This document shows positions 20,968 through 43,346 of a stretch of 64,000 nt of DNA, in pieces; position 1 is the first letter of the stretch; each line of letters begins with the position of its first letter. The position numbers and the translations under genes were made by a program. Location of the stretch: positions 131,759-195,758 of the forward strand of contig MOYE01000008.1 of NCBI GenBank assembly GCA_001899335.1, read 5' to 3'. This stretch comes from Candidatus Gastranaerophilus phascolarcticola. GTDB taxonomy: Bacteria > Cyanobacteriota > Vampirovibrionia > Gastranaerophilales > Gastranaerophilaceae. The notes under the pieces were generated by a model. It was given only the letters and a program-made list of their open reading frames with translations, ran no database searches and was not told the origin of the DNA.

Positions 20968-22350
20968 ATGAAAAAAGGTTATTTAATCAGAAAATCTATT
21001 GCAATAATTGTCGGTATATTATCACTTTTGGCTGTATGCGGTGTATTTTATCCTGTTAAATTTATGGATATTCAATTTACACCATTATTACAGCGGTTAA
21101 TTTTTGATTTTTCTATTATAGCTGCGGTATTGTTTGGGCTTGTTATTCTTGCAACGCTGCTGTTTGGCAGATTTTATTGTTCCACTATCTGCCCATTCGG
21201 AATTTTACAAGAATTTGCGGGGGTTATTCGCGGCAAAAAGAAAAATTCTTTACACAAAAATTACTGTCCGAAAAATTCTCGCGATAAGGAACGTGAGCGA
21301 GAATTTGGAGTGGCGTATGAGACAGCGCAGCCGCGGGTTGACCTGCGAGAGCAGGGCAAGCAGGCGGCGGAGAACTGCTTTATTTGGTTCAAATACCTGA
21401 TTGCAGGTTTAACTTTTGGCGGATTGATAGGCGGCTCGGCGTTATTGATAAGATATGTTGACCCTTACACCAATTTCGGTTCTGCAATAAGTTTGTCAGT
21501 ATTTGGTATAATTTTCACTTTAACGGTTTTAGCAATCGTGTTTTTTAAAAACAGATTTTTCTGTACCAACATTTGCCCTGTCGGATGCGCATTAGGAATT
21601 ATTTCAAAATTCTCGTTAAACAAAATTTATATGGATGAAAATTGTGTAAAATGCGGGATTTGCGCAAACAATTGCCCTGCAGGCTGCATAAACCACAAAG
21701 AAAAAACTGTTGACAATGAACTTTGCATAAAATGTTTAAAATGTCTTTCGGTTTGTCCTAAAGGTGCAATAAAATTTGGGCTGCAGCCAGTCAGGTTCAA
21801 CCCTAAGCGCCGGGATTTTCTTGTAGCAGGCGGAGCGTTAGCACTATTGGGCGCAGGCTATGCCGCAGGATTGAACTTTGCCAAAAATATCGCGAGAAAG
21901 GTTAAAGATGTTATTTTGCCAGCGGGCGCAATGAATACTAACCGTATGGCAAACAAATGTTTAAATTGTAATCTTTGTATAAACAATTGTCCGAACGGCA
22001 TTTTAGCAAAAGCGGACGAAACTTTTTCAGTTGTTCATATTGATTATAAAAAAGGCAAGGGCTTCTGTGAATTCAATTGCAATAATTGTTCCGGCGTTTG
22101 TCCATCAGGCGCAATAAAGAAAATATCTTTGGAAGAAAAACAAAATACAAGAATTGCGATGGCAAGTATTTCATCAGAATGTGTCGGTTGCGGCAATTGC
22201 GTAACTGAATGTCCTACAGGTGCGATTTCAATAGTAGAAAAGAAAGCTGTAGTTGACGGTTCCAGATGTATAGGCTGCGGAAAATGTGCAACAGTATGCA
22301 AGCCTGATGCGATTAACATATTTGCAGTAAACTCACAAAGTAAAGTATAA
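20968..22350 (+). CDS. NapH/polyferredoxin-type 4Fe-4S membrane protein
   Basis: N-terminal TMs, [17 protein letters not shown], multiple CxxCxxCxxxC clusters, internal twin-arginine-like [21 protein letters not shown]. Confidence 0.88.
21273..21383 (-). repeat. GC-rich hairpin repeat inserted in-frame in the polyferredoxin gene
   Basis: 10-bp inverted repeat AAATTCTCGC/GCGAGAATTT (21273-21306) followed by a segment whose reverse complement (AAGCAGTTCTCCGCCGCC...CGGCTGCGCTGTCT) matches 43266-43320. Confidence 0.7.
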
Positions 22351-24702: not shown

Positions 24703-25599
24703 ATGCATTTAGGAAATTCTATTATTTGTCCTGTTACAGGGATTCCAATGATTGTTGCGATGGGTGCAGCTGCGGTATGGGCTTTTAAAAAAGCCAGAAA
24801 AGATTTTACGCAAGATAAAATTCTGCCGACAGTTATGTTAACAGCACTGGTGTTTGGACTTCAAATGATTAACTTTTCAATTCCGACAACCGCCTCAAGC
24901 GGACACATTATAGGTGCGGTTTTACTTTCGGCAATTTTAGGACCGTATGTAGCTTTCTTATCTATGTGTTTAATATTAATTATCCAAAGTTTATTCTTTG
25001 CTGATGGCGGAATTTTAGCTTTGGGATGCAATATTTTCAATATGGGATTTTTGGCTTGTTTTGTTGCATACCCTATTGTTTATAAAGCAATAAATAATAA
25101 ATTTTTGGCTTCTGTTTTCGCTTCAGTTGCAGCATTACAGCTTGGCTCAATCGCGGTTGTAATTGAAAGCGCTATTTCAGGTTCAATGACTAACATATCA
25201 ATGTTCACGTCTTTGATGTGCTCAATCCACTTGGCAATAAGTGTTATTGAGGGTATTGCAACAGGTGCGGTTGTTGCAATAGCGAAAAAAACAAACCTGT
25301 CAAAAATGTTTTCATATTCAATGGGTGGTGCCGCACTTATTTTATCCGGAATAATTTCTAACTATGCCTCAACGAAACCGGATGGTTTGGAATGGTCATT
25401 ATTAAATATGTCCGACAGTTTTGTTGCACAAACACAGGGACAAATTTATGCAATATCAGAAGTTTTGCAGACAAAAACGGCGATATTAACAAACTTGCCT
25501 TCTGTTGCAGCGAATTTAACAGGATGTTTGACACTTATTCTTTTGGCATTTGTAATGTTTCGTTCATGCTGCCAGTACGGTAACCAATCAAATCCATAG
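24703..25599 (+). CDS. CbiM-like energy-coupling-factor metal transporter component
   Basis: MHLGNSIICPVTGIPMIVAMGAAAVWAFKKA, TASSGHIIGAVLLSAILGPYVAF. Confidence 0.88.
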   Translation: MHLGNSIICPVTGIPMIVAMGAAAVWAFKKARKDFTQDKILPTVMLTALVFGLQMINFSIPTTASSGHIIGAVLLSAILGPYVAFLSMCLILIIQSLFFADGGILALGCNIFNMGFLACFVAYPIVYKAINNKFLASVFASVAALQLGSIAVVIESAISGSMTNISMFTSLMCSIHLAISVIEGIATGAVVAIAKKTNLSKMFSYSMGGAALILSGIISNYASTKPDGLEWSLLNMSDSFVAQTQGQIYAISEVLQTKTAILTNLPSVAANLTGCLTLILLAFVMFRSCCQYGNQSNP

Positions 25600-43139: not shown

Positions 43140-43265
43140 ATAAAAATTCCTTGTTTAACATTATATCAAAAACACCTAAAAAAAATTATTGCGTGGCAAA
43201 TATATGAATTTTTGTAAACATTCTTGATACCTTGCGAACCTTCTAAAATATGTTATAATAATAAA

Positions 43266-43337
43266 AAGCAGTTCTTCGCCGCCCCGCCTCGCTGAACCGC
43301 GAGTCGTGCACGGCTACGCTGTCTAGTAGCATAAAGG
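43266..43337 (+). repeat. Second copy of the GC-rich hairpin repeat (intergenic)
   Basis: AAGCAGTTCTTCGCCGCC...CTCGC-TGAACC-GCGAG...CGGCTACGCTGTCTAGTAGC; matches the reverse complement of 21320-21383. Confidence 0.7.
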
Positions 43338-43346
43338 GAGTAAAAT

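Follow-up and report, generated by a model that had tools for sequence, protein, structure and literature searches.

A probable two-hairpin mobile element carried in frame by a membrane ferredoxin gene of Candidatus Gastranaerophilus phascolarcticola

A 40-codon insert in a membrane polyferredoxin gene

The window, a stretch of 64,000 nt from Candidatus Gastranaerophilus phascolarcticola (assembly GCA_001899335.1, contig MOYE01000008.1, positions 131,759 to 195,758), carries a gene for a membrane-bound polyferredoxin (Table 1), directly followed on its 3' side by genes that, judged from their sequences, resemble tat genes. Between the N-terminal transmembrane (TM) part and the next conserved part of this frame lies a stretch of 40 residues, encoded by a 120-nt segment that starts with TGTCCG, ends with CTGCTTTATT, and has a GC content of 0.57, compared with about 0.3-0.4 in the neighbouring gene. 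The first-pass annotation had placed a GC-rich hairpin repeat at 21270-21385; the location was right, the exact ends were not, and its single hairpin proved to be two. Indeed, the element strand folds into two hairpins, both as RNA and as single-stranded DNA (folding z = -2.9 and -4.8, respectively), the stem of the first being AAATTCTCGC-N14-GCGAGAATTT. Both hairpin parts, as well as the partner copy that had been proposed at 43266, were found in the sequence, the latter being a real match that covers the 3' half only. Word-level chance controls are weak for this pair taken alone. The short copy is located between a TATAAT-like sequence (~43253-43258) and the ATG at 43346 of the adjoining plus-strand gene, and may form a hairpin in the 5' leader of that gene. 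A promoter and terminator scan across the insert gave no signal above expectation that would assign it a clear regulatory role, and Rfam scans of the window and of selected loci returned no RNA family at the gathering score.

Table 1 Features in the window and in-frame copies in six other genes (genomes are designated by G numbers, loci by L numbers).
Feature	Position or genome	Strand or orientation	Reading frame	Description and evidence
Membrane-bound polyferredoxin gene	20968..22350	+		Fer4_5/NapH-like with several 4Fe-4S motifs; 460 aa, 40 of them from the insert
Mobile element, full form	21265..21384	+	0	120 nt = 40 codons; ends from relatives' copies and empty sites
5' module	21265..21314	+		TGTCCGA + hairpin 1 (10-bp stem, 14-nt loop GATAAGGAACGTGA) + GAGTGGC; R1 match 77.6 bits, E 6e-16; covariation
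3' module	21317..21381	+		AGACAGCGCAGCC - hairpin 2 - GGCGGAGAACTGCTTT; R2 match 77.1 bits; alignment fold
Short copy, 3' module only	43265..43327	-		Intergenic, ~14 nt before the start codon (ATG) of the following + strand gene; R2 match 71.6 bits, E 6.6e-18, a score that is not independent, the copy being among the 29 used to build the covariance model
alr (alanine racemase)	G004	same strand	1	PDB chain 4luy aligns on both sides; insert between two domains
thiL	G000	opposite strand	2	In-frame insertion
NFACT/rqcH	G004	opposite strand	2	Stretch absent in 6/6 congeners
CbiM-like gene	G002	opposite strand	2	Orthologue in the window (24703-25596) without the stretch
pgeF/yfiH	G003	opposite strand	2	In-frame insertion
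Unknown gene	G006			In-frame insertion

The 40 extra residues are present only in the window protein and absent from all 22 alignable orthologues (open frames of 394-464 aa), in which the KKKNSLHKN-like stretch that ends one membrane part leads directly into the FKYLIAGL-like stretch that opens the next. The first-pass annotation had set a conserved peptide shared by all orthologues against its own reading of a repeat inserted in frame; the alignment bears that reading out. Removal of the 120 nt (TGTCC...CTTTATT) restores N-Y-W-F-K-Y, where the orthologues have N-x-x-(F/V/Y)-K-Y, and hence leaves exactly the two residues that they display at that point. The orthologue of G058 (L044) is lengthened in the same inter-TM loop by a stretch unrelated to the insert; this loop therefore tolerates changes in length.

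A dispersed family of modular hairpins

A BLAST search of the segment against the whole 1.8-Mb genome yielded 38 matches, corresponding to about 30 clear separate copies (best other copy, E 2.9e-36), and more were found in relatives; a lack of further copies had been the other outcome named as adverse to the insertion. The aligned copies follow a common plan: TGTCCGAG precedes a first hairpin, which has a stem of about 10 base pairs and, in complete copies, the loop GATAAGGAACGTGA; GAGTGGCGTATTAGACAGCGCAGCC separates it from the second hairpin, after which come GGCGGAGAACTGCTTT and often ATT. The short form, exemplified by the second copy in the window, consists of the 3' half alone, and longer elements are extended by extra hairpins, placed within the hairpin 1 loop, the linker or hairpin 2, so that lengths range from about 100 to 340 nt with recurring internal modules. 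The linker module, CACTCTGCCGAG...GAGAGG, occurs up to twice in a row. The same CACTCTGCCGAG-stem-GAGAGG unit was also detected alone, outside the elements, including in another genus (L157:1199-1240, L162:2998-3039), and may be a separate mobile hairpin family.

The family is present in all seven genomes of the genus, G002 and G004 being by far the richest, with several copies 100% identical; copies in related genomes and sister species are not all independent. Searches with the R1 model recovered the 5' module in 29 of the 147 genomes of the taxonomic family, spread over about nine genera, and gave no match in 145 genomes of the class outside it. Elsewhere in the family, other genera combine the 5' module with a different 3' module, ending in GCGACACTRGATTAG. 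Relative to GC skew, G-rich sense strands are in modest excess (106 vs 60), a count whose copies are too interdependent to be relied on. Exact composite patterns had no match in viral contigs, and a 15-base pattern that did occur there was ignored, as it matched many unrelated contigs.

Hairpin 1 is maintained by compensatory changes, the structure being kept rather than the sequence. Among 19 different 5' modules from four genera, 96.8% of the stem 1 cells are paired, 39 cells display double changes, and covariation reaches 0.580, compared with 0.185 in shuffled alignments and at most 0.2 after sliding. The 3' hairpin exhibits the same pattern of kept pairing, in a weaker form. A lone 5' module at L132:13631-13680 is a perfect inverted repeat to both of its ends (TGTCCGAGAAAGACTCGC-loop-GCGAGTCTTTCTCGGACA), likely a product of template switching, and suggests that one arm of a hairpin can be overwritten in this way with a copy of the other. 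Compensatory stems might thus arise by template-switch correction of palindromes, without selection, rather than by recognition.

When stretches of 20 kb were compared between two sister species, G002 and G004, sites occupied in one proved to be empty in the other. The copy of G004 at L097 is absent from the corresponding G002 locus, L066, with flanks 100% identical; reciprocally, the copy of G002 at L066 is absent from L097 (flanks 99/94%), and the G002 copy at L132:6046 is absent both from L135 of G004 and from the G002 paralogue L133 (flanks 99-100%). In two examples, the filled sites CTACGA-[TGTCC...CTTTATT]-TACGGCC and TTTTTGC-[TGTCC...CTTTATT]-TGCAAGG face the empty sites CTACGATACGGCC and TTTTTGCTGCAAGG, respectively, the sole difference being the element. 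Since related genomes have empty sites, some with 99-100% identical flanks, the element has moved recently.

Insertion is clean. The window gene gained 120 nt, with a duplication of at most one T, and among 78 copies with an ATT end no excess of flank identity over shuffled pairs was observed for target-site duplications of 1-6 nt. Two older copies (L010, L099) have repeats of 3-4 nt beside their ends, which could be due to chance. Target sites are A/T-rich, without a fixed word in the left flank of the 78 copies, and the element ends, TGTCCGAG on one side and AAAGCAGTTCTC or GAGAACTGCTTTATT on the other, are not inverted repeats of each other.

Copies inside other genes

Intragenic cases were collected by looking, at every retrieved copy, for an ORF that continues across it; the resulting count is small and varies with the detection filter. 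Seven convincing in-frame cases emerged, the window gene and the six others of Table 1. The host genes read the element in either orientation and in three frames or more, same-strand frame 0 being shared by the window gene and L196. Other copies are disruptive: the RAYT gene of G002 is broken by one, a cas1-like gene of G004 (L118) is probably interrupted out of frame, and a PNPOx-like gene (L150) and an ORF in L132 are probably broken as well. Inserted at random within a gene, these copies would leave the frame open with a chance of 0.16; seven open cases against about four to five clearly disrupted ones (P ~0.001, approximate) are therefore a surplus that fits selection, within a small and approximate count. 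Two matches in UvrD-like genes (L134, L141) were discarded, as they came from a loose motif. At L116:642-755 of G004, an element lies in frame inside the apparent signal peptide of a small secreted protein.

The first-pass annotation had likened the window insert, in its behaviour, to the Rickettsia palindromic elements (RPEs). Within the genus, six more unrelated genes hold an insertion in frame, which supports this comparison and makes the behaviour a property of the family rather than a single accident. One could instead regard the stretch of 37-40 aa as an ancient functional loop of the ferredoxin, its similarity to a DNA repeat being a coincidence or the mark of a recruited regulator. The open frame and the length changes tolerated by the loop, as in G058, agree with such an origin, but the stretch is missing from every alignable orthologue, the roughly 30 further copies are mostly intergenic or at gene edges, and the other genes read the element in different frames. 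The ancient-loop explanation, almost certainly wrong in our estimate, is already contradicted by the genomic copies and the orthologue alignment.

We conclude, with a probability of about 0.85, that the segment 21265-21384 represents one copy of a mobile, non-autonomous element with two hairpins, inserted into a pre-existing ferredoxin gene in the lineage of this genome. The gene survives because the copy measures 120 nt (40 codons), is stop-free in the frame used, and sits in a loop between membrane segments. The longer ferredoxin is the product predicted from the open frame, and the inserted peptide is most likely a tolerated passenger rather than a functional domain. Most intragenic copies that break a gene would be lost by selection, and those that keep the frame would stay, lengthening the protein.

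Candidate mobilisers and known systems

No mobilising enzyme was found among the candidates examined (Y1/RAYT, reverse transcriptase (RT), autonomous version); in particular, about 360 kb of G002 and G004 contain no autonomous version in which left and right ends enclose a gene. It is unlikely that a structured RNA is reverse-transcribed and inserted, in the manner of a bacterial SINE-like retroelement, by an RT acting in trans. The strong structure, the stems conserved by covariation, the clean insertion without duplication and the single RT gene found in every genome of the genus are all compatible with this mechanism, but the RT has as neighbours an Avd-like protein and a gene whose variable end is C-type-lectin-like, and thus looks like the RT of a diversity-generating retroelement; moreover, three element carriers of other genera (G011, G136, G157) have no RT match at the cut-off, several non-carriers have one, and the element ends bear no poly-A or other RT signature. 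The genus RT was thus rejected as the mobiliser, since its presence does not follow the element across genera. At its locus (L380, G000:C1:338500-344500; L386, G006:C32), the variable protein with the lectin-like end, the Avd-like protein, the 401-aa RT and a TPR protein follow one another, an arrangement that looks like a diversity-generating retroelement, conserved in 7/7 genus genomes. In G006, two element copies flank the RT gene, and in G000 part of the variable region reads N.

Slightly less likely than reverse transcription is transfer of the element as single-stranded DNA by a Y1 (HUH) transposase of the RAYT type, as for REPs. This mechanism would share the dependence on hairpins and the lack of duplication, and three carriers (G002, G011, G018) possess RAYT genes. 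However, six of the seven genus carriers lack any Y1 match, including G004 with its fresh insertions, the RAYT genes adjoin a REP repeat of their own, the family lacks the GTAG foot of REPs, and the RAYT gene of G002, the only genus genome with one, is itself interrupted by the element. RAYT as the current mobiliser is largely refuted. The RAYT-like Y1 genes of this bacterial family (L151-L154, L156, L158) have as neighbour a distinct REP-like repeat, GTAGGTTGGGC...GCCCAAC, and a copy of this repeat is nested in an element at L150:4486. More doubtful again is a conventional MITE derived from a DDE-type insertion sequence: the elements are small, dispersed, non-coding and of high copy number, but since their ends are not inverted and no duplication exceeds expectation, the empty sites having clean joints, a DDE transposase is disfavoured.

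We rather favour a non-autonomous element whose folded strand, probably single-stranded DNA, would be moved in trans by an enzyme of the host or of a mobile element that recognises the conserved hairpin loops and the unpaired ends. This proposal is drawn from the anatomy of the element, because inverted-repeat ends and target duplications are missing and the stems are kept by structure, not sequence. In its broadest form, which we advance tentatively and at somewhat below even odds, hairpin modules would combine, as from a kit, into folded single strands, which would be moved in trans by an enzyme that needs neither inverted repeats nor target duplication, and would repeatedly lengthen essential proteins in frame across a bacterial family.

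A family of hairpin DNA that alters proteins while it spreads, in the window gene and in six other genes of related bacteria, is of interest in that most descriptions of palindromic DNA invading genes in frame concern Rickettsia, in which intermediate states are difficult to observe. The present family is active enough for sister species to differ by filled and empty sites between identical flanks, which makes the mechanism, the choice of target and the fate of the peptide directly testable. The insertions in alr, thiL and NFACT/rqcH are natural tests of how conserved enzymes tolerate the sudden addition of 35-50 aa, and the modular build, with stems matched by compensatory changes, suggests that the activity behind the movement lies outside the usual transposase types.

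A search of open-access papers retrieved none on such repeats in these bacteria. MITEs are set apart from it by their terminal inverted repeats and target-site duplications, neither of which was found. Palindrome-associated elements derived from IS200/IS605 have subterminal hairpins and insert cleanly, as does this element; by contrast, it shows no fixed target word on the left, only A/T-rich sites, and 6/7 genus genomes have no TnpA-type Y1 gene. With REPs and REPINs mobilised by RAYTs, the family shares genome-dispersed hairpins and a lack of target duplication, as expected for a single-strand mechanism (PMC3116915), but it is not an inverted REP pair and most carrier genomes have no RAYT, the Y1_Tnp gene being confined to one of the seven genus genomes (G002, interrupted). 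A GTAG-type tetranucleotide at the hairpin foot is absent from alignments A1-A3 and present in the separate RAYT-adjacent repeat.

The BOX elements of Streptococcus are genome-dispersed composites of exchangeable hairpin modules (boxA, a variable number of boxB, boxC) with a strong fold if transcribed (PMC3049150). Compared by description and by the lack of an Rfam match, the present elements (~104-340 nt) have the same modular order of exchangeable hairpins. They differ from BOX in host and probably in sequence, in their many in-frame gene insertions, and in the position of the modules, which occupy the loops of hairpins 1 and 2 and the linker of an element without inverted-repeat ends.

The closest likeness in behaviour is to RPEs, palindromic repeats of about 100-150 bp, in many copies, that lie between genes and in frame in unrelated conserved genes, with tolerated additions of about 35-50 aa. 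The element is likewise a short palindromic repeat read in frame in several unrelated protein-coding genes, seven in all. However, RPEs are described as an ORF with one conserved peptide (review PMC10969869; Ogata 2000, 2002 as reviewed there), whereas here the orientation varies and three frames or more are read. Since the single conserved peptide of that description is absent, we do not file the element as an RPE, both the likeness and the separation being drawn from the review's description. The family further differs from RPEs by its occurrence in another bacterial group, by its two separate hairpins with modular inserts, and by the empty sites between sister species, which reveal recent movement.
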